DNA of 53,172 nucleotides from positions 1-53,172 of the IMG/VR virus record IMGVR_UViG_3300021085_000044, one strand, 5' to 3'. How positions within the stretch are numbered: the first letter of the stretch is position 1; the number at the start of each line of letters is the position of its first letter. The position numbers and the translations under genes are program-made. Positions 3,102 through 52,131 of this stretch are shown here, one piece after another. The DNA comes from a virus. The notes under the pieces are model-generated. The model was not told where the DNA came from and did not search any database. It was given only the letters and a program-made list of their open reading frames with translations.

Positions 3102-3917
3102 ATGGAACAGACTAAGAAGCGCGGGGGCAGACCGCCTAAACAAGAACCTGCAACAGCTCGGAAAAAATCTCCTACTATCAAGAGACAAATTCCAGACTTA
3201 GATAAACAAGCTAGGCTCTATGAATGTATTGACGGAAGCAACTTTATGAGAAGGCTACCCACTAAAAACATTCAGGTGTATGATGAGCCGTCTAATTCAG
3301 TAAGGGGTATTAGATATGCGCCTATGGAGAAGTCTATCTACATCGACGAACAGTCAGAAGGGGCTTTAATAGAACCCTTGTTTTTTGATAAAAAGTATTT
3401 GACAGTACCACCCACCCAACCTAACCTCAGGGCGTTTATGGACACACATCCGGGAAACGTAAAGAATGGCGGTAATATATTCAAGCTGGTTCAGAAAGAT
3501 GAGAATGTAGAGGTTGACGTAGAGGAGGAGTTCAAGGTCAGCGATGCTATTTCTATTATCAAGAACAGACCGATTGATGAGTTGTTACCAGTGGCTATGG
3601 CACTTAACATCAACACCAATCAAAAGGACTTATCGATAAAGCATGCCTTGATTAAATACGCAAAGAATAAGCCAGACGATTTTATGTCTACGATTGATAG
3701 TCCGATGGTTAACGCTCGCTCAACCGTAGCTCAATCCATTGATTTTCAAATAATTGAGGAAAGAAACGGAGCTTGTGTTTGGTTTGACACAGGAAAGATG
3801 ATTGTTTCTGTACCATTAGGTCAGGATATTATCGAGGTAATGACTAGATTTGTAATGACTGATAAGGGAGCTTCTGTCCTGTCGGAGCTGGAACGCCAGC
3901 TTGAGGCACTTGCTTAA
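3102..3917 (+). CDS. hypothetical virion-associated protein with AT-hook-like N-terminus
   Basis: A 271-residue protein between the capsid gene and the connector genes. The N-terminus (KKRGGRPPKQ, then KKSPTIKRQ) is basic and contains a GRP core like an AT-hook. The remainder is mixed alpha/beta and includes YLTVPPTQPNLRAFMDTHPGN. I do not recognise a named family. Its place in the head block suggests a structural or DNA-associated role. It ends 24 nt before a strong terminator, so it is the last gene of this transcription unit. Confidence 0.65.
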   Translation: MEQTKKRGGRPPKQEPATARKKSPTIKRQIPDLDKQARLYECIDGSNFMRRLPTKNIQVYDEPSNSVRGIRYAPMEKSIYIDEQSEGALIEPLFFDKKYLTVPPTQPNLRAFMDTHPGNVKNGGNIFKLVQKDENVEVDVEEEFKVSDAISIIKNRPIDELLPVAMALNINTNQKDLSIKHALIKYAKNKPDDFMSTIDSPMVNARSTVAQSIDFQIIEERNGACVWFDTGKMIVSVPLGQDIIEVMTRFVMTDKGASVLSELERQLEALA

Positions 3918-3940
3918 TCATCGGTATTCTCATCAGACGA

Positions 3941-3967
3941 AGGGGGGCATTAGCCCCCTTTCTTTTT
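3941..3967 (+). terminator. Rho-independent terminator
   Basis: AGGGGGGC (3941-3948) pairs with GCCCCCTT (3953-3960) around the loop ATTA, followed directly by TCTTTTT. It closes the scaffold-capsid unit and is followed 3 nt later by a TATATTTG promoter for the tail genes. Confidence 0.85.
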
Positions 3968-3970
3968 CTG

Positions 3971-3978
3971 TATATTTG
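3971..3978 (+). promoter_or_regulatory. TAnnTTTG promoter for tail/connector genes
   Basis: TATATTTG matches the Bacteroidetes -7 box. The start codon is at 3998, giving a short leader of about 15 nt rather than a leaderless start. Confidence 0.65.
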
Positions 3979-3997
3979 CTGGAGATTCCCCTCAACT

Positions 3998-4735
3998 ATG
4001 GCAAGCGTTAGAGAAGTTTACAATGCACTGAAAGATATCGCAAACAAAGACCAGCGAGGGTTTGTTACACCTAGTCAATTCAATGCGTTTGCACCTATAG
4101 CTCAAACGAATGTGTTTAATAACATATTCAACAAGCTAGGCAATGCAGAAGTAATGAGACGTAGGGGTATCGACCCCGGCAGAGATAAGTCACTTGGCAA
4201 GCAAGTCAAGGAAGACCTTTCATTATTTTCAAAAACATCAGGAGCAATCACAAGAACCGTGGGTTCTCACTTTGCAAAACCAGATGACCTATCTAGGATT
4301 ATTACAGTTAAAACGTTTGGAAGCATCCTAATGGATGTAAGCAGCTCTGTAACAATTCCAGTAGAGTATGATGAAGAAAAGCTTGAGTATGTACTTAACA
4401 GTAACCTCAGCAAACCAACTGAAGACTCACCTGTAGCCTTCTTAAATGATGAGGTCATGGTGTTCCCTGACAGCATTAAGAAGATTAGCGTAAGGTATTA
4501 TAAGCAGCCAGAAGGACTGTTAGCCACAACGGGGGCGAGGACAGCTTCAATGCCTAAGTTTGGTTTCACTGTAACTAACAACAAGGAGGTGTACACAGCT
4601 TCCACTAGTGTTGATTTTGAGTTACCTGAGCACTACATACCAGAGCTTGTTGAGGAGATGGCTAGACTCATTGGTGTTAACCTGCGTGATGCCAGCATCT
4701 ACAACTACGCAGAAGGACAGAAACAAAAGCGTTGA
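3998..4735 (+). CDS. probable head-tail connector / tail ring protein
   Basis: A 245-residue protein, first gene after the terminator-promoter pair. It begins MASVREVYNALKDIANK and has an N-terminal helical part followed by a beta-rich part (KISVRYYKQPEG). Position, size and adjacency to a second connector-like gene and the giant nozzle-like gene fit a portal-proximal ring/adaptor protein of podoviruses. crAss-like and P22-like phages keep small ring proteins in this position. No catalytic motif is seen. The assignment is contextual. Confidence 0.6.
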   Translation: MASVREVYNALKDIANKDQRGFVTPSQFNAFAPIAQTNVFNNIFNKLGNAEVMRRRGIDPGRDKSLGKQVKEDLSLFSKTSGAITRTVGSHFAKPDDLSRIITVKTFGSILMDVSSSVTIPVEYDEEKLEYVLNSNLSKPTEDSPVAFLNDEVMVFPDSIKKISVRYYKQPEGLLATTGARTASMPKFGFTVTNNKEVYTASTSVDFELPEHYIPELVEEMARLIGVNLRDASIYNYAEGQKQKR

Positions 4736-13675: not shown

Positions 13676-16600
13676 ATGAACCCAGAACTGAAGGAACTTT
13701 TGGATGAAGCTCGTTCGCGAGGAGCCTCTATGAAAGAGATTCGTAGTATTATGGATGAATACTACGGGTTAAAAAAAAAAGAACCGTCCGAACAGATTGC
13801 CCGACCTCTTATTGCGACTTTTCCGTCCACTTCGGAGGAGGATTCGTTGGGTTCAAAGCAGAGTTCAACTTTGGGGGGAGGCGAAGAGCCTACACTTTCG
13901 GATGTACTTCAAAGACCACTGATTGGTAACAAGAGAGTCCCTCAATATGAGGCTGACGCTCTTGACTTATTAGCGTCTAACTTTTCTAACTCATACACTT
14001 CGGTTTTATATGACCGATTTGACGTAGATAAGTACAAGCAGATACTAGATTACGAGGGTTCAGCCAATGATGCTCAACGAGAGCTAATCACGGCGTTTGA
14101 CACAGCTGATTCTGAGGCTGAAAGGCTAGAGGCTAAGTCAGATATTGTTGACTACTACATGATTGAGGAGGATTCTGACTATGAGGTTAGTAGATATGTA
14201 GTGGGTTCCTCTGATGAGAGGGTCTTTAGGCATATGACTGGCCGTGCAGAGTTTGAGGGTGAGGGTGTCCTAGAAAGAGAGTCACTGTCGGTCCCAATGG
14301 CAGACGCTATAAAGGATATTGGTAGTGCTGCCGCTAGGGAAAACGCACAAGCCGTAAGGGAGTTACTCCCACAAGAAATTCAAGACGACCCTCAGAAAAT
14401 AAGCGACTACGAAAGGTACTTATTTGATGAATACAACATAGCTGTAGACCTTAATGAGGATACATATATTGGTGGTTATGATGTCCTGAAGGGCGGTGCT
14501 TTTTCAGGCACGGGGACTTCGGTAGCAAGGGCGTGGCACGAAGCAATGGCTGGTGCTAATTTTTTGTTAGGCGATGCCGTCGCTTCTGTTTTCGGTGAGG
14601 ACAATATGTTTAGCAGATGGGCGGTTCGGTCTGGTCAGGATGACAGGAATCTAGCAGAAGAGGCTGAGAAAAGATTACCCTTCTCTCTTCAGAGTTACGC
14701 CACAAGAACCGAACAATTATTTGGCAAGACATTCACAGAGTTTACGGGTATCGGTAGTGGTGTAGATGAGGACGAGACCACCACAGCGAACATGGGTTCT
14801 TGGGTGAATGAAAACTTACGGATGTTCGGTGAGTCAGTACCAATGATGGGGGCGGCTTTAGCGGCAGGTGTTGTCACTCGTGGTCGTTCAACTAGAGGTA
14901 TGGGGATTGGTAGGAAGTTCAGTAAGCTTAAGGGCGCGGACAAAGTTGCTGCTGGTCGAAAAATTATAGAGGCAAACAAAGACTTAAATGCTGTACGCTC
15001 TACAAACCTATTAGGGAAATCACAAAAGACAACTACGTCTGCTAGGATTGCTAAGCAGGCTGGGAAAGCTCAGAACAGGGGGGCCTTAACAGCTACTACC
15101 GCAATGGGTATGGCATCTACATACAACTCGGTAAGAGACGAGAGTTGGTTTCAAGAGATGGATGGTTTTGAGAAAGCTGGATACACAAGCGCGATGGGAT
15201 TCCTTGAAGGAGCACCAGCATTTGTCGGCGCAGCCATTGCAACAAACGTACTAAGAACTGCTGGTAAAAGGTCTGTTGAGTCTTTTGCGAAAGGATTGAT
15301 TAAATCTGTTTTTGCAGGTGCTACTGAAGAGGCTATTACAGAGGGAGTCACAGCAGCTGGACAGTACTACATCAACTCAATTGCTAACCCTAACGTAGAG
15401 TTCAGTCAAGCTGGACTTTGGGAAGCAACTAAAGAGGGGATTTATGCTGGTGCTTTTCTAGGTGCTGGGGTAGCTGGAGCTGCCAACCTTCCTGCTGGTA
15501 TCCGTGCAGCAGCAATGAGTGCTACATCTATACCCGGACTAAGGGATAGCATTGAGATTAAAAAGCTAGCTCGTGAGTATGATGTGGCGGAGAGTCAAGC
15601 CCTCAGAAAAGAGATTGGCGAGAAGTTAAATGCAGCTGTGATGAAAGCGTGGGACAAAAAGCTTGGACGCTCTAAGTTCTACGAACAACTTCAAGAGTCA
15701 AACCCAGAGGCATTCAACAGTCTTGAGGAGATACAAAAGAAGATTGCAAAGCTAGGCATTGACCATAGCAGAAGTGAAAGCGAAAGCGAGAGGGGCACTT
15801 TAAAAGGGCAGCTCACAGCTTTGATTGATGAACGAACTAAGAAAGAGGCTGAGCTTGGTTTAGAATATGACCTAAACTCAAGCAGTGAAGTTGGAAGAAT
15901 ACTTAGGGGTGTGTCTAAGATAGACGAGAGGTACAATGGATACGGTGAGATATTCCAAGGAGAGGGTGATTCAGTTACCGTGACTGGAGAAAATGTAGAT
16001 GCCGTGCTTGACGCTATCAATGGCACAACCTTAGATGGTGTCCGTCAGATAGAAGACAAGACATTTAAGAGTGGTGCTCAGATGAGGCGAGCAATGGCTA
16101 ACGTCATGACGGTTGTAAAAGCTCTATCAAAAACGGGCAAGCTTGATGGGGTTGTTATTCACAAGACCGAGAGCTCCTTTCAGGATGCGGCTGGAGAAGT
16201 AGCTAGGGGTATGTGGACTGGTAAAGGAAAGATTCATATCTATGCTCCTGCGGTGCTAGAAAATACAGGATTTCACGAGGCGTTTCACGACTTGGTCCTT
16301 GAGTCAATAGGCGTTGAAGCTGTTACAGGACTAGCGGAAAAGCTTTTCGCAAATCTTTCTGGTGAGCTACGCCCAAAATATGTTGAGTTCCTAAAGAAGT
16401 ATGGAGCGGCGGGAAACATTCGTAAAGCCATTTTAAACAACCCCGCTGTAGCAGAGGAGTTCTTGGTTGAATTGCTTGCTGATATTACTACAGGAGGCTT
16501 AGAGGCCACGGTAAAAAGAGGACTGGTAAACTCTCTCAAGAGCTTTATCAATACGTCCTTAAATAAGATACCTAATGTAAACGTTGACTTCACAGACGTT

Positions 16601-19600
16601 GACCCAAAACAACAAGACCTAGTCACAGCTATTCAAAAGATGACTGGTCAGCTAGCCTCTGGTGAGGCTGTAACAGGAACTCAAGACGTTCGGGAAGCAG
16701 CAACAAGAGCTGGTTATAACGCTATGATGGTTGAGCTCGACGACATGAGCTCCAAGGCCCAAGGCATTAACGCTAGAATGAGGGATGTTGAGGAGGTGAA
16801 CGACGCTGCCCAGTTCTCTACAGCTATGAGTGATGCTATTCGTAGGATGCGAGACATGGGTAAACTCATGGCACTACAAGTGACACCCCTTTCGGAAGAA
16901 GAGGCTCAGGAAATTCTAGATGGTGGTGGTAAACTGTTTATGACTAAAGATGGACTAGCTGGAGCTTACGTTAACAAGGACGGATACATGGGGGGGTTGT
17001 TTAAAAACCCAGACTCTCAATTAAAAGCTGTCAGCTACCCACTCCAAATCATTAGAGGTAGAGAGGGTGGTAAGTTTTATGATGCATTTGCAACAGACCT
17101 TGAACGTCAGTACGTAAACAACGGGTGGAGGCCAGTTGCTAGGCTTGACTTCAATCCTGAGTTTGCACCAGACGGATGGGATAGTGAGTCTTCTCCCCTT
17201 AAAGACCAGCCTGACGTTGTGTTCTTTGTCAAGGGTGATGGTAATATTGGTGATGGTATTAGAATGAGCGACTACATGGAAGCTTATAACTATGCCGAAG
17301 GAAAGGCTAACGGAAAGGCTCAGGCCCTAGTCATAAAATCACTAGAAGATAAACCGGGTAGAGAATCCTTTTTATCTACTGAGGGGGTTACCGAAGAGCA
17401 GCTAGAGAAGCGAAGAGAAGAATTAAAGCTAGATGAAAGTCAAAGACAAAAGCGTAGTCCCAAGGTTGTAGATGCTTTAAAGAATTATGTTTCTCAAGAA
17501 ATTAATCAAGACCAATACATACAGGTTGTAAGGGAAGAGTCACCAATAACACCATTTGTTTCTGTTCCGGCAGTACCTACGACTATGGACATTGGGGCTG
17601 CACTTACAAGTAATAAGGTTGAGTCTGGTATCATAGGGGTTAACAAAGAAATACCTGAGAACTATTACGTTGGCCTTAGACTGGACATTCCTGCATATGA
17701 CAACTATGATGTATGGGTTGTGTCAGTACACCAAGGTGCTAGAGGTGAAGAGAGGACCCCAAACTTAGGTGGTAAGTCAATTGGGTATGCTCAAACAGCA
17801 CTAGCTACCAATGTAGAGTTTCAGTCCATAGCCAAGGGAGCGTTAAACATAGCTCTTGAAAAGGGGAAAACAACAATAGCTAGGATGTTTGGTGACTGGA
17901 ATAATCATGACCCGCAGGGATTGAGAGACAGGGCTGAAGACATCATGGCTAGTGAGGAGTACAACAAGTCAGAACTCGGTGAAGGAAAGCTTGAGGGTTG
18001 GATTCAAGTTGGTATGAATCCCTTCCGTCACAGCTGGTTCTATGACAAGAGAGATGGAAAGCCTATTGTATCTGCTTCTGAAGTAATTCAAATAGGAGCT
18101 TTAGTTTTGGCTAAGAACGCCGAGAAGGTAGCTGTGTCTGATGAGAGATTTAACGTAATCAATAAGGACGGTTCAGCTGTAAAGTTTCAGAAGGTGCTTC
18201 CCGGTCAAGCCGGATTACCCACATCTCAAACTTTTTCTAACAAAGCCCAGAAGTTTGGTAGCTTCTCCAACAGGTACAGTAAAGACGACAAGGAGTTTAA
18301 GAAGTTAATGAGCAAGTCGGTCAAGCATGATGCTGATGTGTATGAATTACTGGCCGGGAGGACTGTGGTTACATCGTCTCCAGACAACCTTATGGTTGGT
18401 GATGTCTACTTTGAGAACGAATTAATATTCACGGGCGGTGGTGGTGTATTCTATCCTGTAAGAACTGGTAATGTGTGGGCTGTTGCCAAGCCAAAGGAGG
18501 CCAAGGAAATGGTCGATAAGATTAATGCCATGCGCAAGAAGTCTCCTGACGGTAAAGTCTTCTTCACTTTGATTAGCGGAACACAGGAGAAGCTGTTCAG
18601 TAATACAGGGGCTCTTAAAGCTTCTGAAATCATACTTAGAAAGCTTGTTGAGCAGGGTGTTATGCCTGAGTCTGTGTTTAACAAGCTTCTGATTAAATCG
18701 TTTAAGCAAACGTTCCCAAAGAAAAAGCCAATCCGAATTGACGGTTCATTCTCAGATGTATCAGAAAGAATACTTGCTTACATGGGGGATGTAAATGAAT
18801 CTACATTCGGTAAGAGAAAGTATTACACGGACAGGTTGTTTGTTAATATGCGAGACGCTCTAAAAGAAAATGAAGAGGCTAGATTGGCTATCCAGAAACT
18901 ACTGGCCAGCGAAGTCATAGGTAAGAATCAAGGCGGAAGTATCCCCAAGGGCGTTGTTTCTAAGATGCTTACGGAGAGATTCCTTCAGGGTGTTCCTCAA
19001 GGAATGATTTACGCCGCCGTAGAGATTGACTCCGACCTGTCTTTTGCTATGGAGCCAGAGTCATCACCTATATTCCCTGCTGCGCTGTTTCAGGTAGACG
19101 AACAGGGTAATAAGAAAAATCCAACTCTTCACTTATTTAAAGACAAAGAGCCAGCAGAGGATATCCTTACTACTGAAAGAGGTTTTGAAAAGCAACCTTT
19201 CATAGACAAGTTCTCTAACAAATATGAAGGGAGGTTCAGGCAAGACGGCTCACCGAAAGACCCGCTGAAGGCAGCAGAGTCAGCATGGTACGCTCTCTTA
19301 GGTATGAGAAACCAAGCGTTCGGGACAGGCAAGGTTAAGCCCAAGGCTCAAGCTATCGTAGCTCAAGAGTCAAAAGCTCAAGGCAGCTTCTTAAAACAAG
19401 TGTCTCAATTAATAGACCAGAAGTACCCATCGCCAATTGTAAATCGTGATAAGAGAAGAAAGAATCCTGTCACAGGGCTTGATGAAACCTCACAGCTAGA
19501 TGCTTTCGCGCACACCAAGGCGGAGGTAATTAAAACCTTAGTTGACATGGGCTTCTCCAAAGAGGGTTCCGAGATGATGTTTAAGCAAGCGGTAGCTTAC

Positions 19601-22600
19601 AAGCAAGGAAGGACTCAAGGTAAGAAGGAGGGCATGCGTGTTGCCTCAAAGAATGCAGCCGACGCAAAGAAGCTGTCAACCAAGGCCCGTAACCTAAAGA
19701 AGTCACTGGAGGAGATAAGAGACAAGTCAAGCACATTCAATGAATTCTTAGCAAAGGCCATCGAGCTCATTGACGCTAGGATGAAAGAGAATTCTAAGAC
19801 ACCGTTTACTAGGGGTCAGGTAAAGAGTATTGTTAAGTTCATCCGTCAAGCTCACAAGACTAGCGCAAAGAAAGCACAGAGCGAAGGTCTTGACTCTATG
19901 CAATCATTCATTGATAAGATATCTGTGATATTCGATAGCCGAGATGCCAAGGCTGAAATGGAGAAATACCTTAAGGGTATTAAGTATGCTCAGTCTCTAC
20001 AGAAGAGGCTAAAGAAAATGGCTAAGGTGAAAGGGCGAGGCTCTTCACCCAAGAATGTAACTACATACGCCAAGATAGCCAGAGGATTAGCTGCTATTAA
20101 CCCAGCACTCCTACCTCAAAAAGAACTTGAGGGATTCGTTGCTACTATCATGGAGACTATCACATCCATGTCGAAGTCTGAGGCTGTGTTCGATAAAGAA
20201 CTGGAGGCTTACGTTGGTGTGGAGTACACTAAAAGCACCGCTGAAGCTCTGTATAATAGACTCAGCAATTACAGTGCAATGGAGGAGCTTGGTCGGCAGT
20301 CATTGTTCATGGCTAGAGCGCAGTCAAGAGCAATTAAAAACGGTACAAGCGTTCAACAGGAGTACGAAAAGCTACTAAAGAACTATGAGAGAAGTAGATT
20401 GTCTTCAAGTAGAAGAGCGATACTTAACTTCATTGACGAAAACCCTACAGCTGTAAACCCTGATACCGGGGAGACGATAGCTCTAAACGAAAGCAACCCA
20501 GCTCACATTGATATTGTAACAGGGATTCTAGCAGAGCAAGCTTCTACAAAAGAAGAGCTAAAGAAAGACGCAATAATCAACGATGTATTAATACCTAGGA
20601 TAGCAGCCAACATTGAGAAGCTACTAGAGGACAATCACATTGCTGAGATATTGGGAATTCATAGTGTTGAAGACTTAGACCTAGATGTATTAAGAGATAG
20701 ATTAAACCTGCTAAAGAGACATCACGTAATTAACCTTGACTACAGGCTTGACGACTACATTGTAAATGATTCTGTGTATGGTATTGGTTATATGCACTCC
20801 TTGGTTAGGGGTAACATTGACCTACCATCTTCATTATCTAAACTCACCCGGTCAAAGGGATTAAAGTCTAGGCCCAATGTTTTCTTGGCTCCGTTCGGAA
20901 CAATAAACTCGTTCCTTCAGAACCTAATTCCAACGGACAGAATTACTTCGGCTAAACTTAGGGTTAGCTTTGGTATTGCGCAGCTTGTTGGAAGCTTTGC
21001 CAAGGCCGACTTCATTCACTCACAGCTAACTGAAATGATTAGCGAGGAGATTGACAGGATATCGGAAGAGGGTGGTAGTGTTGGTACTAGATATGACAGG
21101 GCAATCGCTCAGATATATTCGATGGCAAGACAGCTGCCGAGCTTCGAGGGTGAGCGTGGTGGAGCTGAAGCAGCTTGGTATATAGAGCTTAGAGATTCAA
21201 TGAGAAGAACGATTGATGACTACATTGAACAAAAGACATACCCTGTTGAAGAGATAAATGAATTCGAGGATGCGTACTCTTACATGTTCAATGGGAACGA
21301 AACGCTATCTGAGATGATTGCAAGGGTTGAGGGAGACAGGTCTGACGTTACTGGGTTCGTTCAGTTTGTAGCGGACATTCATTCTACCTTGATGCCTCAA
21401 TTTAAAAATTATGTAGAGAGATATTTAGGCAAGGAGCTAGAGATAGAGGAGAACTACACTGCCTTTAAGGTTATACCTGAGACAGGGGTCAAGGACGTGG
21501 ATGACATACTCAGCTTAAGACTTTCCCTTCAGCAATCATTAGCCAGCACGTCTCTATCTCATTCTAAGAAAGTTGCAGGTAGCAGCTTTGAAAGAAATCC
21601 AAGGTCACTAAAAGGGAAGAGCAAAATTGGATTAGATTTTGTTGCTATAAATGAAAGAACGATTCGGGAGAACGTTATACTATCAAACACTATAGGAGAT
21701 GTCGTTGTTGCTAATCATGTAATTAATAGTGACGCTGCCGCATCATTGATTCCCAACAGAAAATCCAGACTCGACCTAGAGAAAAAGATTATGCTGTATG
21801 TTCAGCAGGATTCAGCTACAGTTCCGCTAGCGTTCCAACCAACACAGACGGTAAGAGGAGTTAAGTTTGTTAACCCCATCAGCGTACTAAGAAATGCAGT
21901 TGTTGTTAGTCTCTTTGGTGGTTTTGTCTTTCAAACACTGAAGCAATCACAGGTACTGTGGAGTGTTGCCTTCCAAACCAAAAACCCAATGAAGTCTATC
22001 CCTTATCTGATTCAGATAATGTCAGAGTTCATGATGTTTAACATTGAGACCCTAACGAAAAAGGATTCCAAGCTAGCAATGGACGGTGGTAGATACAAGC
22101 TACTGCAAAATTCACCTGTGTTTCAAAGGGATTACGAAGCAGGAAACATTGACCCATTCACAGGCAAGCTAAACCTTGATGAAGGTGGATTCTCAAAGCT
22201 ACAGAGAAAGCTAACAAACATAAGTTTAAAAAACCTCAAGGGTACAGACAAGATTGCAGCTGTTGCTTCATGGTTTATGTTCTATGGTGACGCTCTAATA
22301 AGCGAAGGTGTGGTAGATAGCTTTGAAGAGATTGACTGGGAGGCGGAGGCCGCGACCCCCAACAGTACAGCTCTGAGTTACTCTGATATGATGGTTGCTA
22401 AAGACCAGTCAGCTTCTACCACTAGAGAAGCAGCTGAAATATATGCTCAAGAAAAAGGTCTTAACAACTTGGGAATGCACATAGCTAAAAATCTTCTCAT
22501 TCCATTTGCAAGGTTTAGCATAAACAAAAAGAGAAGTGTGTCTTCTGATTGGTGGCGAATGGTTGGAGCTGATGGGATGAGTGGACTAATACCTAAGAAC

Positions 22601-23644
22601 AGACAGGATTTAAAAGTTAAGTCTGAAGGTGCTGTTGCTATGCTTGGTCATAGTGTAGAGACCGCTATGTTCCATGCCACCAACAAGATTGTATTGGCAG
22701 GGCTTACAGCTTATGTAGGCGCACTGCTATTCGGGGAAGATGATGAAGAAGCTCCGAAAAAATCAAATACACTCAGAGATATTGCCACTCAAACGGTTAT
22801 CGACCTCTCTCCTTTACCCCCGCTATCCTTGGTAGACAACAAGGCCAAATCCTTTTTGAATAGAAGCGTTTGGTATCAATTGGATAAGGCAAGAGAGGGT
22901 GATTATAATCTTGGTGACGATGATGGGTATGAACGATGGGTGAGATTAAATAAAGGCGTACCGATATTTGAAGATGGTGGCAGCTGGGCTGGACCTTACG
23001 GAGATTATATTGATGACATCGTAACCACAGTACACAACCTACAGCTACCTAACAACAAAGTTGTTACCGCTACAGGAGCAGAGTATTATGTTAGACCTGA
23101 GGACAAGAACTCAATGATGCTTCACTTTGCCCTTAAGACTACGTTAGCAGCTACTCAAATGGTAGGGCTATCCAGTAGCGAGGTTAGAAAATTAATATCA
23201 TCATTGGATGACTTACCAAGAGACAGAAGGTTGTCAAATGAAGAACAGCTAGCTGCATACGAAACTATCGCAGAAAGATATGGTCGTGATTTAATTTCAG
23301 GAGAAGGAGATGAAAGGTTAATCAAACTCATCAATCAGGTAGACAATCCATTCGATAAGATTAGAGTTGCGAACTCATTCAAGTCATCTGTAAAGCCAGT
23401 CATAGCTGAACAGCACATGAGAACCTCTTATCCCGAACAGTATAAGGTACATATGAGGGATGCCAGAAAGCTACCTAAACAATTGAAGAATGCTAGAGAT
23501 TACTATGCGTATCTCAGGGGCAAGAAAGACAACATGAAGCCAAAGGATTTCGAGGCATTTAAATTATTTCTTGATACTTATCTTAGTCTAGTAAAGCCTA
23601 GCTTTTATGTACAGGAACGATACATTGAATCGATAGAAGAATGA
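13676..23644 (+). CDS. giant polyvalent ejection protein with HEAFH metallopeptidase motif
   Basis: A 3322-residue protein, about 19% of the window, last of the three probable ejection proteins (T7 gp16-like position). Visible segments: helical N-terminus; hydrophobic Gly/Ala stretches near 380-410 and 600; a zinc-peptidase motif H867-E-A-F-H871 in a hydrophobic context (TGFHEAFHDLVLES); a segment around 1450-1485 (RHSWFYDKRDGKP, then EVIQIGALVLAKN) that I recall from large polyvalent phage proteins; long Lys/Glu-rich helices about 1950-2200; and a likely membrane helix near 2997-3017 (IVLAGLTAYVGALLFG). Such proteins are packaged and injected, and can act on the cell wall or on host defences. 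The peptidase substrate is unknown. A run of ten A residues at 13771-13780 lies within the ORF. The stop overlaps the next start (ATGA). Confidence 0.8.
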   Translation: MNPELKELLDEARSRGASMKEIRSIMDEYYGLKKKEPSEQIARPLIATFPSTSEEDSLGSKQSSTLGGGEEPTLSDVLQRPLIGNKRVPQYEADALDLLASNFSNSYTSVLYDRFDVDKYKQILDYEGSANDAQRELITAFDTADSEAERLEAKSDIVDYYMIEEDSDYEVSRYVVGSSDERVFRHMTGRAEFEGEGVLERESLSVPMADAIKDIGSAAARENAQAVRELLPQEIQDDPQKISDYERYLFDEYNIAVDLNEDTYIGGYDVLKGGAFSGTGTSVARAWHEAMAGANFLLGDAVASVFGEDNMFSRWAVRSGQDDRNLAEEAEKRLPFSLQSYATRTEQLFGKTFTEFTGIGSGVDEDETTTANMGSWVNENLRMFGESVPMMGAALAAGVVTRGRSTRGMGIGRKFSKLKGADKVAAGRKIIEANKDLNAVRSTNLLGKSQKTTTSARIAKQAGKAQNRGALTATTAMGMASTYNSVRDESWFQEMDGFEKAGYTSAMGFLEGAPAFVGAAIATNVLRTAGKRSVESFAKGLIKSVFAGATEEAITEGVTAAGQYYINSIANPNVEFSQAGLWEATKEGIYAGAFLGAGVAGAANLPAGIRAAAMSATSIPGLRDSIEIKKLAREYDVAESQALRKEIGEKLNAAVMKAWDKKLGRSKFYEQLQESNPEAFNSLEEIQKKIAKLGIDHSRSESESERGTLKGQLTALIDERTKKEAELGLEYDLNSSSEVGRILRGVSKIDERYNGYGEIFQGEGDSVTVTGENVDAVLDAINGTTLDGVRQIEDKTFKSGAQMRRAMANVMTVVKALSKTGKLDGVVIHKTESSFQDAAGEVARGMWTGKGKIHIYAPAVLENTGFHEAFHDLVLESIGVEAVTGLAEKLFANLSGELRPKYVEFLKKYGAAGNIRKAILNNPAVAEEFLVELLADITTGGLEATVKRGLVNSLKSFINTSLNKIPNVNVDFTDVDPKQQDLVTAIQKMTGQLASGEAVTGTQDVREAATRAGYNAMMVELDDMSSKAQGINARMRDVEEVNDAAQFSTAMSDAIRRMRDMGKLMALQVTPLSEEEAQEILDGGGKLFMTKDGLAGAYVNKDGYMGGLFKNPDSQLKAVSYPLQIIRGREGGKFYDAFATDLERQYVNNGWRPVARLDFNPEFAPDGWDSESSPLKDQPDVVFFVKGDGNIGDGIRMSDYMEAYNYAEGKANGKAQALVIKSLEDKPGRESFLSTEGVTEEQLEKRREELKLDESQRQKRSPKVVDALKNYVSQEINQDQYIQVVREESPITPFVSVPAVPTTMDIGAALTSNKVESGIIGVNKEIPENYYVGLRLDIPAYDNYDVWVVSVHQGARGEERTPNLGGKSIGYAQTALATNVEFQSIAKGALNIALEKGKTTIARMFGDWNNHDPQGLRDRAEDIMASEEYNKSELGEGKLEGWIQVGMNPFRHSWFYDKRDGKPIVSASEVIQIGALVLAKNAEKVAVSDERFNVINKDGSAVKFQKVLPGQAGLPTSQTFSNKAQKFGSFSNRYSKDDKEFKKLMSKSVKHDADVYELLAGRTVVTSSPDNLMVGDVYFENELIFTGGGGVFYPVRTGNVWAVAKPKEAKEMVDKINAMRKKSPDGKVFFTLISGTQEKLFSNTGALKASEIILRKLVEQGVMPESVFNKLLIKSFKQTFPKKKPIRIDGSFSDVSERILAYMGDVNESTFGKRKYYTDRLFVNMRDALKENEEARLAIQKLLASEVIGKNQGGSIPKGVVSKMLTERFLQGVPQGMIYAAVEIDSDLSFAMEPESSPIFPAALFQVDEQGNKKNPTLHLFKDKEPAEDILTTERGFEKQPFIDKFSNKYEGRFRQDGSPKDPLKAAESAWYALLGMRNQAFGTGKVKPKAQAIVAQESKAQGSFLKQVSQLIDQKYPSPIVNRDKRRKNPVTGLDETSQLDAFAHTKAEVIKTLVDMGFSKEGSEMMFKQAVAYKQGRTQGKKEGMRVASKNAADAKKLSTKARNLKKSLEEIRDKSSTFNEFLAKAIELIDARMKENSKTPFTRGQVKSIVKFIRQAHKTSAKKAQSEGLDSMQSFIDKISVIFDSRDAKAEMEKYLKGIKYAQSLQKRLKKMAKVKGRGSSPKNVTTYAKIARGLAAINPALLPQKELEGFVATIMETITSMSKSEAVFDKELEAYVGVEYTKSTAEALYNRLSNYSAMEELGRQSLFMARAQSRAIKNGTSVQQEYEKLLKNYERSRLSSSRRAILNFIDENPTAVNPDTGETIALNESNPAHIDIVTGILAEQASTKEELKKDAIINDVLIPRIAANIEKLLEDNHIAEILGIHSVEDLDLDVLRDRLNLLKRHHVINLDYRLDDYIVNDSVYGIGYMHSLVRGNIDLPSSLSKLTRSKGLKSRPNVFLAPFGTINSFLQNLIPTDRITSAKLRVSFGIAQLVGSFAKADFIHSQLTEMISEEIDRISEEGGSVGTRYDRAIAQIYSMARQLPSFEGERGGAEAAWYIELRDSMRRTIDDYIEQKTYPVEEINEFEDAYSYMFNGNETLSEMIARVEGDRSDVTGFVQFVADIHSTLMPQFKNYVERYLGKELEIEENYTAFKVIPETGVKDVDDILSLRLSLQQSLASTSLSHSKKVAGSSFERNPRSLKGKSKIGLDFVAINERTIRENVILSNTIGDVVVANHVINSDAAASLIPNRKSRLDLEKKIMLYVQQDSATVPLAFQPTQTVRGVKFVNPISVLRNAVVVSLFGGFVFQTLKQSQVLWSVAFQTKNPMKSIPYLIQIMSEFMMFNIETLTKKDSKLAMDGGRYKLLQNSPVFQRDYEAGNIDPFTGKLNLDEGGFSKLQRKLTNISLKNLKGTDKIAAVASWFMFYGDALISEGVVDSFEEIDWEAEAATPNSTALSYSDMMVAKDQSASTTREAAEIYAQEKGLNNLGMHIAKNLLIPFARFSINKKRSVSSDWWRMVGADGMSGLIPKNRQDLKVKSEGAVAMLGHSVETAMFHATNKIVLAGLTAYVGALLFGEDDEEAPKKSNTLRDIATQTVIDLSPLPPLSLVDNKAKSFLNRSVWYQLDKAREGDYNLGDDDGYERWVRLNKGVPIFEDGGSWAGPYGDYIDDIVTTVHNLQLPNNKVVTATGAEYYVRPEDKNSMMLHFALKTTLAATQMVGLSSSEVRKLISSLDDLPRDRRLSNEEQLAAYETIAERYGRDLISGEGDERLIKLINQVDNPFDKIRVANSFKSSVKPVIAEQHMRTSYPEQYKVHMRDARKLPKQLKNARDYYAYLRGKKDNMKPKDFEAFKLFLDTYLSLVKPSFYVQERYIESIEE

Positions 23645-24231
23645 GACTAGAGGTAATGAGATTTAGCAGTCAAAAGGATGATACCCTTGGGTTGCTGTTT
23701 GATGTAACGGAAGGACGCAAGTTTATGTGCTACACTCTGGAGGATGAGTACAGAGAAGCCAAGGTCATACATGAGACTAGAATCCCTGCGGGTACATACG
23801 ACTTGCGATTAAAAACATGGGGTGGGTTTCACGACAAGTATTCAAAAAGATTTTCTGAAATTCATAAAGGTATGATTGAGGTTATGGATGTGCCTAACTT
23901 CACTCACATACTGATACATTGTGGTAATGATAATGATGACACCAGCGGATGTCTTCTTGTTGGGGCTACACAAACAGAAAACAAAAACTCTACAGGATAT
24001 GTAGGTTCGTCAACCACAGCCTATAAATCCATATATCCGGCTATTGCAGATGCAATTGAAGTCGGAGGCTGTAGTATCACATATATAGATTTAGATGGAA
24101 GACAAGAAGAAACTAAAGGATACAGCTGTGGGGAAATGGCTGGCAAGAAGTGTACCTCATGTACTGGATGTGGTAGGGAACTCTCTTCCGGACAAAGGTG
24201 TACTGGGTGTTGTAAAGAGACTGGTAGATAG
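23641..24231 (+). CDS. DUF5675-family probable peptidoglycan enzyme with Cys-rich tail
   Basis: A 196-residue protein. Residues 1-150 match the DUF5675 pattern as I recall it: IPAGTY (48-53), then ILIHCGNDNDDTSGCLLVG (90-108), with H93 and C104 spaced like the His and Cys of L,D-transpeptidase (YkuD-like) active sites. In phages this family sits in lysis cassettes and is a plausible endolysin, though not proven. Residues from about 152 on are encoded over the start of the holin gene in another frame. They hold seven cysteines (163, 171, 174, 177, 187, 190, 191) in a zinc-ribbon-like CTGCGRELSSGQRCTGC arrangement. The start is set by an ATGA overlap with the giant ejection protein. Confidence 0.8.
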   Translation: MRLEVMRFSSQKDDTLGLLFDVTEGRKFMCYTLEDEYREAKVIHETRIPAGTYDLRLKTWGGFHDKYSKRFSEIHKGMIEVMDVPNFTHILIHCGNDNDDTSGCLLVGATQTENKNSTGYVGSSTTAYKSIYPAIADAIEVGGCSITYIDLDGRQEETKGYSCGEMAGKKCTSCTGCGRELSSGQRCTGCCKETGR

Positions 24232-24541
24232 TGAGCCAGACTTAACGCCCGAACAGCGAATGGAGTTCAGTGAGATTGCTGCGCGACAAGAAATGAATGC
24301 TCAGGACAACGTCACGAAGCGATGGGAATCAGACATGTCAAGCGATATAAAGCTAGCTAAGCTCATTAGACCTAGCGTGCTTATCACTATGCTGGTTTTT
24401 TTTATGGTGATTACGATTTGGGATGGAGTTGACACTGAGTTCTCGCCAAGAGAGAACTACATAGACCTTCTTCAGGTGTTAATGCTTACGGTATTTGGTG
24501 CGTACTTTGCAGGCCGAACTATCGAGAAAACTAAACGATGA
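24095..24541 (+). CDS. holin (3TM / gene-transfer-type superfamily)
   Basis: A 148-residue protein. A charged N-terminal half is followed by two clear membrane helices (about 92-110, SVLITMLVFFMVITIWDGV, and 123-140, LLQVLMLTVFGAYFAG) and a short basic tail. The pattern of a helical region, then an I-R-P turn, then membrane helices resembles the Holin_3TM family described from gene transfer agents (family memory). It overlaps the DUF5675 gene by 137 nt and the downstream protease gene by ATGA, forming a coupled lysis cassette. No other Met just downstream would remove the first overlap without deleting the N-terminal helix. Confidence 0.75.
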   Translation: MEDKKKLKDTAVGKWLARSVPHVLDVVGNSLPDKGVLGVVKRLVDSEPDLTPEQRMEFSEIAARQEMNAQDNVTKRWESDMSSDIKLAKLIRPSVLITMLVFFMVITIWDGVDTEFSPRENYIDLLQVLMLTVFGAYFAGRTIEKTKR

Positions 24542-25656
24542 AACATCTAGCCCTTATACTCTGCCTGCTCTCGTGTAAAGCGATTGTAGGACAGGATTCT
24601 TGTGCTGTATTTGGTGTCGAAAACATACAGCCTAGGATGATGGGGTATATCCCGGAACCTGTACAGTGGGAGACCATAAACTACGTATATCACATATACT
24701 ACACCGACAGTTTCCCTGACAGCTACATACCCGAGGATATTATTATGGATGCCCACGAGCATCTGAATGAGGAGTTTGATGAAGCCATGCTTACTTTCAA
24801 CCTTGTCAGTATCATGTATCACGACTTCGATTTATTCTGGGGTGCCCCTACAATCTTGGAACAAAACTCTGTATGCGTACCATATAGTTCGAGCGGGTTT
24901 CAATGGATGGACGGTTATGTAGAAGACTTAGTTTGGGACAGAGAGCAGTACATGAACGTACATATATTTCCTAAGTTCTGTAACGGGATACTAGGTTTTG
25001 CTTGGACAGCATACACAACTCAAACAGAATTAGATGGTGTGTGGGTTAGGTCTGACGTGTTTGGCAACTATGGGCCTCAGCTTTATTACGATGACAGAGA
25101 CCAAAACAAAACACTAATACACGAGGTAGGCCATTTCGTTAGTCTACATCATGTTTTTCGTAACATAGATAACTGCGGTCAAAACCTAGGTGACTGTCTA
25201 GAGACAGGAGATTTTGTGTGTGACACTCCTCCAACCAAGTTAAACTTTAGCTGTGAAAACCCTATATGCCCTCCAGCGTTGTACGGATATGAGACTAACA
25301 ATCACATGGACTACTATCCTGATTCATGTAGAACCAACTTCACTGAGGGACAGATAGAAAGAATACATGCCGCTCTACCCATACTACGCCCCGGATTAAC
25401 AGGCCAGCCGACGTTCTGTCAAGGCGACATCAATGGAGATTTAGTTGTAGGTCAAACAGACTTCTTAATGTTTCTATCTAACTGGGGAGATATTGAATGG
25501 GAGGAAGGTGACCTTAATCAGGATGGATACACAACCATCATGGACTTTCAACTAATGCTGGCTAACTATGGTACAATATGCTTTGGTGCCGAACTAGACC
25601 CGTTCTACAGGGAAGAAGAAACCCCCGCCTTAAAGGGCGAGGGGCTCAGGTGGTAG
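24538..25656 (+). CDS. secreted M43 (pappalysin-like) metalloprotease with dockerin-like tail
   Basis: A 372-residue protein. The N-terminus is a signal peptide (LALILCLLSCKAIVGQ). Cleavage could be by signal peptidase I before Q19, or at Cys13 as a lipoprotein (LLSC). The catalytic motif H195-E-V-G-H199-F-V-S-L-H-H205 fits the metzincin HExxHxxGxxH with Gly replaced by Ser. CDTPP (228-232) and the Met-turn NNHMDY (M257) are typical of M43 proteases. C-terminal residues 296-345 contain two dockerin-like DxNxD calcium-loop repeats. The gene is coupled to the holin by ATGA. The role is inferred: degrading host envelope or matrix protein during lysis, or modifying the infected cell surface. Confidence 0.85.
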   Translation: MKHLALILCLLSCKAIVGQDSCAVFGVENIQPRMMGYIPEPVQWETINYVYHIYYTDSFPDSYIPEDIIMDAHEHLNEEFDEAMLTFNLVSIMYHDFDLFWGAPTILEQNSVCVPYSSSGFQWMDGYVEDLVWDREQYMNVHIFPKFCNGILGFAWTAYTTQTELDGVWVRSDVFGNYGPQLYYDDRDQNKTLIHEVGHFVSLHHVFRNIDNCGQNLGDCLETGDFVCDTPPTKLNFSCENPICPPALYGYETNNHMDYYPDSCRTNFTEGQIERIHAALPILRPGLTGQPTFCQGDINGDLVVGQTDFLMFLSNWGDIEWEEGDLNQDGYTTIMDFQLMLANYGTICFGAELDPFYREEETPALKGEGLRW

Positions 25657-37652: not shown

Positions 37653-37956
37653 CAGGAGTGGAAAATTCCGAAATAACAAGGTTGGTCTTGAGATTGATGT
37701 GCGCTTTCTTGATTTCGAACATCACGCGCTGAGCTGGTAAAAGCTCATCCTCAGCGATGGTCAAACGCTCTTGGATGTTGCTGATGGTTTGGTCGGATAG
37801 GCACAGGTCTTTCGCCAGTTTCAACTCCCTATCCAAAGACTCAAGGTTAGACTCTGCTAAACTCAACGCAATCTTAGCCATCCCTCGTGCGTTCTTCAGG
37901 GCAATCTCAACCATCTCCATCGCTGCCTGCAATCCTTCGTTCGTGTTGTCTATCAT
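37645..37956 (-). CDS. hypothetical coiled-coil protein
   Basis: A 103-residue helical protein with regular Leu/Ile/Ala spacing from about residue 12 to 75 (coiled coil). It ends in STPAQ, with the last codons inside the control element of ardC. The function is unknown. Confidence 0.6.
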   Translation of the reverse strand: MIDNTNEGLQAAMEMVEIALKNARGMAKIALSLAESNLESLDRELKLAKDLCLSDQTISNIQERLTIAEDELLPAQRVMFEIKKAHINLKTNLVISEFSTPAQ

Positions 37957-37973
37957 CTTATATGGGTGTTTAG

Positions 37974-38012
37974 TTATACAGCTATAACGGATTCAACATT
38001 TAATTTATTGTG
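37974..38012 (-). promoter_or_regulatory. bipartite early element, copy 7
   Basis: The minus strand reads CACAATAA, 15 nt, CGTTATAGCTGTATAA, upstream of the 37956 start. Again TAA serves as the stop of the preceding gene (A-Q-stop). Confidence 0.55.
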
Positions 38013-38493
38013 CAGAGCCTAGTCTAACTTGCGCCATGCTCCTTGCGTGGCTCGGCATCAATGGCTTCAATCGTTCCAGTATCGCAACGTATTCAGCCTG
38101 TAACGCATCCATCTTGGCTTGCGCTATGTCAATGGCTTCCTGAGCCTCGAACCGCTCAATTGGAGTAGTGCAAGCATCCTTGAGGTTGCGCATGTATCTG
38201 CGCTCCATCATGGCATCTTCGAAGGCATCCTGATTGTCTTCACGGGCATCCTTCAATAGGACTCGTTCAACGTTCTCCTTGCACTCTCTCAAGGTCTGGC
38301 CTCCAGCGAACATCTCGCTGTCATTGTCCTCGTACGCAGTGTACTCCTTGAGCACTTCGTCCTTTGCAATGAACATCCTGAATTCACCATCGACGAATAC
38401 GTCGGTGACCTTCTGCTGGATGACTCCGTATCCCTCGGCTCTCAGGTCCATCGTGTTGATGCCTCTCTTGAATGTGATGTTTAACTTACTCAT
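38005..38493 (-). CDS. hypothetical protein
   Basis: A 162-residue protein, first gene of the minus-strand early cluster. The N-terminal half is beta-rich (INTMDLRAEGYGVIQQKVTD). The C-terminal half is helical and charged, including AQEAIDIAQAKMDALQAEYV. Its leading position suggests it is among the first proteins made after infection. Such genes often take over host functions, but nothing specific is visible. Confidence 0.6.
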   Translation of the reverse strand: MSKLNITFKRGINTMDLRAEGYGVIQQKVTDVFVDGEFRMFIAKDEVLKEYTAYEDNDSEMFAGGQTLRECKENVERVLLKDAREDNQDAFEDAMMERRYMRNLKDACTTPIERFEAQEAIDIAQAKMDALQAEYVAILERLKPLMPSHARSMAQVRLGSAQ

Positions 38494-39347: not shown

Positions 39348-39390
39348 TCGCTTATAATTCATTTGGTTAGATAGGGAGAGGGATTGGCAT

Positions 39391-39425
39391 TTGCTGGTCC
39401 TTTTCTTTATTACTTTTGTAGCATG
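39391..39425 (+). promoter_or_regulatory. TAnnTTTG promoter with -33 TTG, leaderless spacing
   Basis: TTG (39391-39393), 17 nt, TACTTTTG (39411-39418), TAGC, ATG at 39423. Confidence 0.65.
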
Positions 39426-39629
39426 GACACATTGACGCAATTTGAGATGATTATCATTGCAGGTTCGATAGTCGGTACGTGGATTAAACACAATTCTGAT
39501 TACGCGCATCTAAAGGGGAGAGTGATTGCACTTGAGAATGATAATGGGGAGATGAAGGACGACGTGAAGCAATTGCTCAAAGAGGTCCAAGAGCTAAAAG
39601 TTTTGTTGGCTAAGAACCAACTACAATAA
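39423..39629 (+). CDS. small membrane-anchored coiled-coil protein
   Basis: A 68-residue protein. MDTLTQFE is followed by a membrane helix (about 9-23, MIIIAGSIVGTWI) and a coiled coil (about 34-65). An upstream ATG at 39384 is possible but lies before the promoter box, so 39423 is preferred. The topology resembles XhlA-type haemolysin/holin accessory proteins and some spanin-like proteins, but no lipobox is present. The role is uncertain. Confidence 0.65.
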   Translation: MDTLTQFEMIIIAGSIVGTWIKHNSDYAHLKGRVIALENDNGEMKDDVKQLLKEVQELKVLLAKNQLQ

Positions 39630-41782: not shown

Positions 41783-41801
41783 AATGAATTGTGTTATGGG
41801 G

Positions 41802-41838
41802 TTCCCTTATACAACGGATTAAGATTCCGTATATTGTG
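41802..41838. promoter_or_regulatory. bipartite early element, copy 9, and overlapping plus-strand promoter
   Basis: The minus strand reads CACAATAT, 14 nt, CGTTGTATAAGGGAAC, upstream of the secreted-protein gene (start 41782). On the plus strand TATATTGT (41830-41837), one or two mismatches from TAnnTTTG, lies four bases before the ATG at 41842. Confidence 0.5.
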
Positions 41839-41841
41839 CCC

Positions 41842-42393
41842 ATGCTTGTAAAACGCGTAAAAAAATTTCAAAGGGTCTCCAGAGTAAGCATGAGAGAGGG
41901 TGGTTTAGTAGACTGGCCTCCAAGCGGAGCGAAGTCTTTTGATTCTATTCTGGACAGACAGATATATAAGGAATCCACGGGAAACCCCTTGGCTGAGTCT
42001 TCAACTGGTGCGAGAGGATTAGCTCAGATAATGCCCGGAACAGAACAGTACCTAAAGGAGAAGGGAATGATTCGAGAAGATTTCGACCCATTCAACCCTG
42101 AGCACTCGAAAGAAGCGCAACAGGTTTATATGAATAACTTAATGAACAGGAGCTGGAATAAAGGTTCTGAGGAAATTAAGATTGCTAAAGCATTGGCAGC
42201 ATATAACTATGGACCTACAGCTACAGTGCGCGTTCTTAATAAAGCTAAAGAACAAGGCAAGGACATATATGAATCTCTTGATTGGATTGAAGAACTGCCT
42301 CTTGAGACTAGAGATTACATATCTAAGATACTCGGATATAACGAAAAGTTTGAAGACGAGTATGGAAGTTACAGACTAAGGGGCAATAGCTAG
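41842..42393 (+). CDS. lytic transglycosylase (SLT domain)
   Basis: A 183-residue protein. IYKESTGNPLAESSTGARGL (41-60; E44 the catalytic glutamate), AQIMPGT (61-67) and AAYNYGP are the three SLT motifs of lysozyme-fold transglycosylases. No signal peptide is visible, and the basic N-terminus precedes the domain. It could be a virion-associated wall-degrading enzyme or an endolysin needing a holin. The start at 41842 is chosen for its 4-nt spacing to a promoter-like box. An upstream ATG at 41791 would overlap the divergent control element. Confidence 0.85.
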   Translation: MLVKRVKKFQRVSRVSMREGGLVDWPPSGAKSFDSILDRQIYKESTGNPLAESSTGARGLAQIMPGTEQYLKEKGMIREDFDPFNPEHSKEAQQVYMNNLMNRSWNKGSEEIKIAKALAAYNYGPTATVRVLNKAKEQGKDIYESLDWIEELPLETRDYISKILGYNEKFEDEYGSYRLRGNS

Positions 42394-50322: not shown

Positions 50323-52131
50323 ATGCCTGTAAGTGTAACCCAGCCTAAAAATGTAAAAGTATCTAGCCAACACGGTGACATCATTAAGGTGTCTATTGTT
50401 AAGGGTGGCTCGGATATTCAAGTAGTCACTCTTAATCAGGCGGCCAACAACTCTATCACTATTGCTGGAGCAATTGGTGCTGGTCCTGCTGGGGCTGACG
50501 GAAGTAGAGGATTACAAGGACCAACTGGAGAAACTGGTCCTGCTGGTCCTGCTGGAGCGCAAGGTCCCGCTGGAGCACAAGGGCCTGCTGGAGCACAAGG
50601 GCCTGCTGGTTCTCAAGGTCCCGCTGGTCCCGCTGGTCCCGCTGGAGCCGATGGTGCAGATGGTGCAGATGGAGCGGATGGTGCCGACGGTAGTGATGCA
50701 ACAACTGAAACTCTAGACTCTGCAATTACTGTATTCTTACCAGACGGCGGTAACTTTGGAAAGTTTTCTCACACTGACCAGATAGTAGTAGGTGATGGTA
50801 ATAAAACTGCCATCGACATAATTAGAGAGGCTCTTGTTCAGTTAGGGCAAATCCAAGCTCCTACGATAAATGTCACACCTAATAGTGTGGGCTTTAACGA
50901 CACGCCTATTAGTAATGCTACAGCGCAGATACAAGCTTCTGTAACAAACCCTAATAGCTCTCAGGGCTCTACGATTACTTTCAAGTTTTATAAAAAGATT
51001 GGTAGTGGTGCGTTTAGTTTGATTCACACTCAAACTGGTGTTACTGGAGCATCAGCGAGTTACACCCACAGTGAGACCTATAGCTTTGCCTTCGCTACAG
51101 AGAACCCAACTAATGAGCACATCACTTGGAAAGTAAGTGCAGAGGAACCTGATAACGGTCAGGGTGAGGTGTTTAGCTCGGAGGTAGACTACGACCCCGT
51201 GTATATCTCACCAAGATTAATAAAGACCAACAACACAAACGGTATTGAGCTTCAGAGAAATTCCAATGCATTAGCTACGGTTTCATCAGACGAGACCGAC
51301 TCCAATCGTCAGCTATACAACGGTGAAAGTAATCTCAAGTTTAAGGTTGAGGTTGAAACGAGCGGCGTAGCTCTGGATAGCTACGCGGTTTTAGATTCTA
51401 ACAATGCTCTCGTTGGAAGTATAGTAGACATATCTGGTGAAAGTCTTGACTCTAATGGAAGAACCAGCACGTTTAGTATTGCTATAGATGATGGCGATGT
51501 CGCTATTGGCGATTCTAATACATACAAGGTAAAGATTTGGGATAGTGTAAGACCTTACTCTAGCTTGAGTTCTACTGAGTGTGACTTTGAATCTGCCTCC
51601 TACTCAGTAAATAGGGTTCCTGTTAAACTGGTTCTAAGCTCTACTGCTCTAACCACCTCAAGTACTGACTCAAATTTTCAGGACATGTACGATGGAGACA
51701 CTTCCAACAACGGTGTTTCGTGCTACCCTGAAAACATAACTTCTACTGGTGACTTACTTGACGCTAACACGTCTCAGTTGAGTGTCAGTATGCTTGTAAA
51801 TACTTCTCAGCAGACAGGAGATTACGTTTACGTCTTTGTTCCTTCATACTATTTTTCAAATGGTAGTGGGGGTTATCAGGATTTAACAGGAGGGGGTAAT
51901 GTCAATCAAGATTTCTTTGAGGACTTTGGAGGCAACAACTACACGCAAAGAATAGAGAACCCCCCACAAACAACGGGTGATTTCTGGCTCCTGAAAGAAG
52001 CGTTAAATTTGCAAATTCAATTTGGTGCAGCCAACAATAAAATTCCATTTCATGTCCTGAGGCTCTATGAACCATTGGCTAACGTTGGTTTGAGAGGGAG
52101 CTATTACCTAATAAGAAATACGGAATCTTAA
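50323..52131 (+). CDS. fibre protein with collagen-like shaft
   Basis: A 602-residue protein. Residues 1-50 form a beta-rich anchor ([20 protein letters not shown]). From about 54 to 126 there is an uninterrupted collagen-like Gly-X-Y run (GPAG, GAQGPAG, GADGADG units), predicted to trimerise. The remainder is a Ser/Thr/Asn-rich beta domain with repeated sandwich-like segments (FTVSN, KVKIWDS) and a C-terminal tip. Similar collagen-like shafts occur in tail and head fibres. It is probably a host-contact fibre. Codon use shifts in the GC-rich repeat. Confidence 0.75.

Follow-up and report, generated by a model that had tools for sequence, protein, structure and literature searches.

An optional, exchangeable M43 metalloprotease gene placed with lysis genes in marine relatives of crAss-like phages

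The M43 gene and its protein

The stretch of DNA analysed here, which we call the window, is the entire IMG/VR record IMGVR_UViG_3300021085_000044 (53,172 bases, possibly still a genome fragment). It carries, at the close of a block of plus-strand genes, a gene for an M43 (pappalysin-like) metalloprotease whose start overlaps the stop of a holin gene in the letters ATGA. The features of this locus, and two more distant genes discussed with it, are:

23641..24231, plus strand: DUF5675 protein, overlapping the holin reading frame (PF18925, E=2e-27)
24095..24541, plus strand: holin of 148 residues, its stop overlapping the M43 start (phrog_3427 'holin', E=3.1e-16)
24538..25656, plus strand: M43 (pappalysin-like) metalloprotease gene, 372 residues (reading frame, profile, PDB match and predicted fold)
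24538..24594, plus strand: putative signal peptide, likely cleaved after GQ19 (sequence and hydropathy)
24658..25407, plus strand: catalytic domain, residues ~41-290, Pfam core 125-280 (Pfam and fold comparison)
25120..25152, plus strand: zinc motif H195-E196-V-G-H199-x5-H205 (sequence; invariant in 40 of 40 viral proteins)
25300..25314, plus strand: Met-turn NHMDY, residues 255-259 (sequence)
25417..25581, plus strand: dockerin-like C-terminal module, residues 294-348, with two calcium-loop-like repeats (Pfam, NCBIfam and profile)
25621..25643, minus strand: terminator-like hairpin in the 3' end of the M43 gene, where the C-terminal tail is variable (pattern match only; alignment)
39384..39629, plus strand: small protein, here cc, with a hydrophobic N terminus and a coiled coil (weak holin and spanin PHROG matches, E 0.03-0.09)
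41791..42393, plus strand: SLT lysozyme-like gene, ~16 kb from M43 (profile match)

The phage is crAss-like, since the window encodes a crAss muzzle protein (Pfam PF25731, E=1.4e-16), a virion protein 26-28% identical to counterparts in Cellulophaga and Flavobacterium phages, and terminase and portal proteins of families recognised in PHROGs; its host would be a member of the Bacteroidota. The phages in which the M43 gene is optional are marine relatives of crAss-like phages. Immediately 5' of the DUF5675-holin-M43 block lies a 3,322-residue protein (13676-23644) for which Pfam gives nothing significant (best E=0.044) and which is strongly divergent among M43-bearing relatives (identity to the L003 protein is 23% over 765 residues and to the L006 protein 66%), and a tail-fibre-like protein with collagen-like repeats is found at 50323-52131.

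The initial annotation, made from the letters alone, had named the protein a secreted M43 protease, and both profile search and fold prediction bear out the family. The window protein scores 65.4 bits with Peptidase_M43 of Pfam, where the cut-off is 23 (E=7e-18), and matches ulilysin in the PDB at E=2.5e-12; the solved relatives of the viral proteins are ulilysin (of Methanosarcina), mirolysin and PAPP-A. The motifs that had been pointed out, H195EVGH199x5H205, NHMDY and CDTPP (residues 228-232), are all present in the 372-residue frame, as is the ATGA overlap with an upstream frame that phrog_3427 confirms as a holin. The fold model used, built from 40 sequences with a pLDDT of 69.4 and poor modelling of residues 207-256, resembles mirolysin and ulilysin both in Foldseek (E=2.2e-10 for 6r7w, 1.9e-9 for 3lum) and in a VIA fold comparison (Z 18.2 over 227 and 219 residues, 3.2-3.3 A), where M43 entries rank above other metzincins and the best non-M43 metzincin chain has Z 13.8. 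A first model from 13 sequences was set aside for its pLDDT of 39.8. By sequence and predicted fold, then, the protein is an M43 metzincin with a complete active site in a mirolysin/ulilysin-like framework. It matches no PHROGs family up to E=1, and a T9SS sorting domain was not found in it (no Por_Secre_tail up to E=1 in Pfam or E=0.1 in NCBIfam).

A signal-like N terminus, as the initial annotation had claimed, is recognisable in the window protein by eye and hydropathy, and is visible by the same means in the 40 distinct full-length viral proteins described below, some of whose mechanically called starts are probably too early. We infer from this N-terminal sequence that the protease is exported. 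The window protein has a lipobox-like LLSC, but Cys13 is kept in only 2 of the 40 homologues, so that the signal is more probably of type I and the lipoprotein reading was dropped. Eleven cysteines, all within the mature protein, are invariant in all 40, and the count being odd, one of them would stay free. Some M43 enzymes have cysteine switches, and a candidate for one here is Cys22, close to the predicted N terminus of the mature protein. Of the two dockerin-like calcium loops described earlier, the repeats themselves are there (residues 297-308 and 325-336, inside the Dockerin_1 match) and a profile from 40 homologues finds a solved dockerin (E=3.5e-6), but single-sequence scores fall below the curated cut-offs (Dockerin_1 in Pfam, E=3.4e-4 and 21.2 bits against 22.9; dockerin_GC, 21.5 against 29), and we therefore call the module dockerin-like only, not a type I dockerin.

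A search of IMG/VR with the window protein alone gave 16 loci encoding M43 and a search with an alignment gave 61; a scan for the holin added a further 8 (L022-L025, L028, L032, L037, L068). Full-length proteins come from 50 of the 61, and 40 of them are distinct; residue counts rest on these 40, with truncated copies, the frame-split L147 (=L013) and L157 (=L017) and the 8 holin-scan loci omitted. The three zinc histidines, the catalytic glutamate and the methionine of the Met-turn, M257, are identical in 40 of 40; loss of zinc ligands, which the initial annotation had named as telling against its reading, thus occurs in none of them. The site HE[VM]GHx5H also recurs in 7 of the 8 holin-scan loci, L068 being truncated, and in L022, outside the set of 40, the Met-turn pattern is unmatched. 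The conservation supports an active-looking enzyme. In two cases the M43 frame is broken, into 2 pieces in L013/L147 and 6 in L017/L157, and these are either pseudogenes or assembly errors.

Placing with holin and lysis genes

In the window the lysis setting that had been proposed holds in part: a holin adjoins M43, but no recognised endolysin does, so that the cassette consists of holin, DUF5675 and M43. The holin is homologous to one that adjoins an annotated endolysin in Nonlabens phage P12024S, and DUF5675 adjoins holin or M43 in other phages too. Among the window proteins searched, the SLT gene is the sole peptidoglycan hydrolase recognised and no spanin was found with a strong score. The cc protein, whose homologues lie near an amidase in other phages, is perhaps an inner-membrane spanin or a second holin. 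The DUF5675 frame of the window extends 137 nt into the holin frame, in another frame, giving the protein a cysteine-rich C-terminal extension that is missing from its 154-residue homologue in L006.

The holin-M43 arrangement is not peculiar to the window. When neighbours were mapped with family profiles built in this analysis, 34 of the 50 loci having more than 650 bp of upstream sequence proved to have a holin no farther than 2.5 kb upstream of M43, overlapping or abutting it in 14 of the 34, and in the other 16 none was found within that distance; L128, with 6 kb of upstream sequence, has none of the profiled neighbours there. Several gene orders recur among the 61 loci: DUF5675-holin-M43 as in the window (7 loci), holin-cc-M43 (10), holin-TM95-secreted106-M43 with or without additional genes (7, among which L111 reads Amidase_2-holin-TM95-secreted106-M43), holin-M43-Amidase_2 (3; L100, L117, L138), M43-TM95-Amidase_2 (1; L156) and M43-cc with no holin in reach (8, all of one lineage), and other orders also occur. 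The end-of-operon position of the window gene is not general, as some relatives have more same-strand genes after M43. The link between M43 and lysis genes thus recurs across differing gene orders and is real but partial, as it is not seen in all loci.

The neighbourhood holds other secreted proteins. Between holin and M43, L111, L114, L133, L135 and L140 encode a 95-residue transmembrane protein and a secreted protein of 104-106 residues that looks thioredoxin-like by eye. In L051 (6435-8843) and L081 (6435-8576) the slot after the holin is filled instead by a secreted protein of 802 or 713 residues with a T9SS sorting domain (TIGR04183, above cut-off), followed by a protein of 344-345 residues with a signal-like N terminus. 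Proteins of like appearance lie directly after the holin in L093 and one gene later in L091 and L094.

The gene is also optional. Among the best 80 of 553 confirmed holin matches, which are not a random sample, M43 is present at 16 loci and absent from 64, and 18 of these 80 loci have DUF5675 upstream of the holin, 3 with M43 and 15 without it. In a scan with the terminase (TerL), of the best 80 of 599 relatives, 17 are in records of at least 30 kb, and 13 of the 17 have the holin and 5 a catalytic M43 match, though the records may be fragments and such absences are no proof. Two of the 5 M43s lie at the holin or one small gene off, two are longer and lie elsewhere, and one is cut by a contig end; matches to the dockerin part only were found in 3 more TerL relatives. 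The two longer M43-type proteins, 586 residues in L303 (1339-3099) and 628 in L304 (1093-2979), lie apart from the holin; the first ends in dockerin-like repeats and the second, by appearance, in a T9SS tail. Absence of the gene from phages with an intact holin had been named at the outset as evidence against a lysis function, and with 64 of the 80 holin loci lacking it, M43 is an accessory gene and not a core part of the lysis machinery.

Selection, exchange and origin

For 6 of 7 pairs of viral M43 genes dN/dS lies between 0.05 and 0.10 (2 of the 6 being rough estimates, with dS above 2), and the seventh pair is saturated. Given these low ratios and the invariant active site, the gene is under strong purifying selection.

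A close relative of the window is the 71.5-kb contig that carries L110, with a terminase 99% identical. The two align over 13 kb at 90.7% identity. Inside M43, 11 consecutive segments of 100 bp (24500-25599) are 58-80% identical with a mean of 67.8%, compared to 73-100% and a mean of 92.7% for the 119 segments outside it, where only two single segments are at 80% or less (18900, 78%; 30200, 73%). From 25600 to ~27600 identity is 81-95%, slightly below the remainder. The step in identity coincides with the M43 gene, the holins being 97.3% identical and the M43s 68.1%. When L002/L098, a near-copy of the window, is set aside, the M43 of the window is nearest to that of L003/L099 (83.9%), though their holin is only 51.1% identical, and the M43 of L110 is nearest to that of L104 (84.9%), though the L104 holin is only 50.4% identical. 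Identities of M43 and holin are only weakly correlated overall (Spearman 0.18; 465 pairs from 31 loci, some of them near-copies). The cross-matching and the low dN/dS fit exchange of single alleles better than fast divergence in place, and M43 thus behaves as a single-gene cassette exchanged between phages. This swapping, which the initial annotation had not foreseen, may point to tuning of the protease to particular hosts or substrates.

Cellular relatives are common. Within the order to which G001 belongs (G001 being the genome bearing L158, recorded as Flavobacteriales), 46 of 46 genomes have M43 relatives, and so do 344 of the 395 genomes examined in its class, the two sets overlapping. 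A T9SS-like tail can be read by eye at the end of several fetched cellular proteins. In a tree of the catalytic domain, a branch with support of 99/96 separates the 40 viral proteins from 52 cellular entries and MT837139; 52 of 53 cellular loci entered the tree, the one without the motif used for domain excision being left out, mirolysin and ulilysin are not among its entries, and the program warned of long branches. The best identity between a viral and a cellular protein, over alignments of at least 120 residues and best-scoring loci only, is 39.6% over 159 residues in a first set of 33 loci and 42.9% over 161 residues in a second of 20; as at most 4 candidates per genome were scored in the class-wide set, a closer cellular relative may have been missed. 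A scan of genome contigs gave one weak match only. Since identity reaches 42.9% at most, the viral branch is well supported and the GC content of the gene (44.1%) is like that of the phage (43.1%), recent acquisition from the sampled hosts was rejected as unlikely. MT837139, the only phage-collection record matched by the window M43 and its L156 homologue, is an unverified, unannotated record of 7.6 kb, may be bacterial, and serves as a tree outlier only.

Possible roles of the protease

The reading that we prefer, at roughly even odds (about 0.5), is that of an accessory, moron-like M43 protease carried by the phage, which would be exported and cut host envelope or matrix proteins around lysis, thereby aiding release. 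The enzyme would be made late in infection, leave the cytoplasm via the Sec system of the host, and stay in the periplasm or on the cell surface, perhaps in zymogen form and latent until lysis; around lysis it would cut envelope or extracellular-matrix proteins of the host, freeing progeny from debris and preventing them from binding to it, and alleles would be swapped because the target proteins differ between host strains. The release protease proposed in the initial annotation agrees with the active-looking catalytic domain, the export signal, the placing with lysis genes, the conserved catalytic residues and the purifying selection, but not as a core function. Progeny release is our best guess for the purpose of the cutting, and clearing of the surface of neighbouring cells would look the same here. 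The accessory and swapped state of the gene speaks against a general lysis factor and favours a match to proteins that are specific to the host. Against accessory release, in turn, stands that a gene next to a holin may simply occupy an insertion-tolerant end of an operon, as T9SS-tailed secreted proteins occupy the same slot in L051 and L081, that 16 of the 50 loci gave no holin within 2.5 kb upstream, and that two TerL relatives have longer M43-type genes apart from the holin. A bolder and rather doubtful form of this reading would make protease release a third lysis step of Bacteroidota phages, in which an exported latent M43 cuts the envelope or matrix of the host and the alleles, shuffled like host-range genes, are fitted to the surface proteins of the strain.

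Four other readings have to be weighed against accessory release. That M43 is a genuine lysis enzyme of the third step, doing by proteolysis what spanins or LysB do and breaking the protein anchors of the outer membrane so that cells burst, would agree with its position after the holin (and before an amidase in L100, L117 and L138), with the lack of a strong spanin match among the window proteins searched, and with the precedent of mycobacteriophage LysB, reported as a lysis-cassette enzyme for a third step that affects progeny release (PMC5707550). We consider this unlikely, as the gene is missing from four-fifths of the best 80 of 553 holin loci, 10 of the 61 M43 loci also encode the transmembrane coiled-coil protein as a possible disruptor of the outer membrane, and allele shuffling is not expected of a general lysis factor. 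LysB itself differs: it is an esterase, not a protease, its target is mycolyl-arabinogalactan, and efficient release requires it.

Accessory status and interphage swapping would suit phage-phage competition, for instance a periplasmic or surface protease acting before lysis, with its signal-like N terminus, that cuts a receptor or an incoming phage protein and so excludes other phages. The placing with holin and lysis genes points to synthesis late, not early, in infection, and we give this quite a low probability. An auxiliary secreted enzyme winning peptides for the infected cell or for nearby kin hosts is more improbable still: M43 relatives abound in Bacteroidia-like genomes, which suits secreted feeding enzymes, and some other residents of the slot are also secreted, but a position among lysis genes leaves the cell little time to benefit, and the viral proteins group apart from the fetched cellular ones. 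Least probable is a selfish or neutral passenger in an insertion-tolerant slot, spread by recombination around holin and terminator, which fits the sharp swap boundaries at the ends of the gene, the several unrelated genes in the slot and the split frames of L147 and L157 (decay or assembly error), but not the strong purifying selection and the invariant active site.

An accessory release protease of this kind has partial counterparts. Mirolysin (of Tannerella forsythia) and ulilysin belong to the same family by profile and fold and share the zinc motif and Met-turn, with ~23% identity to the viral M43, which differs in being phage-encoded, in its dockerin-like module and in its setting among lysis genes. 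Maribacter phages Molly and Colly encode a 199-residue zinc metallopeptidase, annotated as a matrixin, with a lipoprotein export part, and Bartlau et al. suggest that such enzymes break down matrix proteins, either to reach the cell for infection or to free progeny from debris and matrix (PMC8776804). This too is a metzincin with an export part in a marine flavobacterial phage, but it is of another family by annotation, its fold match to the viral M43 is weak (E=6.1e-5), and in Colly_1 it lies (3407-4006) ~34 kb from the amidase (37694-38290). The T9SS-tailed cargo of Cryophage, described as highly variable between phage variants (PMC7468147), is a precedent for variable cargo, and prophage Bfgi2 carries a C10 protease, bfp3, as ORF 34, with amidase and holin as ORFs 4 and 5 (PMC2873492). 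Both are secreted accessory proteins on Bacteroidota phages; they are of other protein families, and the available text of the two papers mentions no holin-adjacent slot. A prophage anti-repressor metalloprotease is unrelated to the viral M43 (PMC8002715), and Peptidase M43 is named as a bacterial virulence factor in another study (PMC5714932).

In the open-access PMC literature we found no paper on M43 in phages or lysis cassettes. The setting of M43 among phage lysis genes therefore appears to be new, while phage metalloproteases, enzymes in lysis slots and variable secreted cargo are already known. To our knowledge, the way in which Bacteroidota phages pass the outer membrane and the surface material when the cell lyses has been little studied. 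With an M43 family that is linked to lysis genes, optional, maintained active by selection and swapped gene by gene, the release of these phages becomes testable, through the substrate of the enzyme and the relation of allele to host, and the slot after the holin is a place where such phages exchange secreted proteins.
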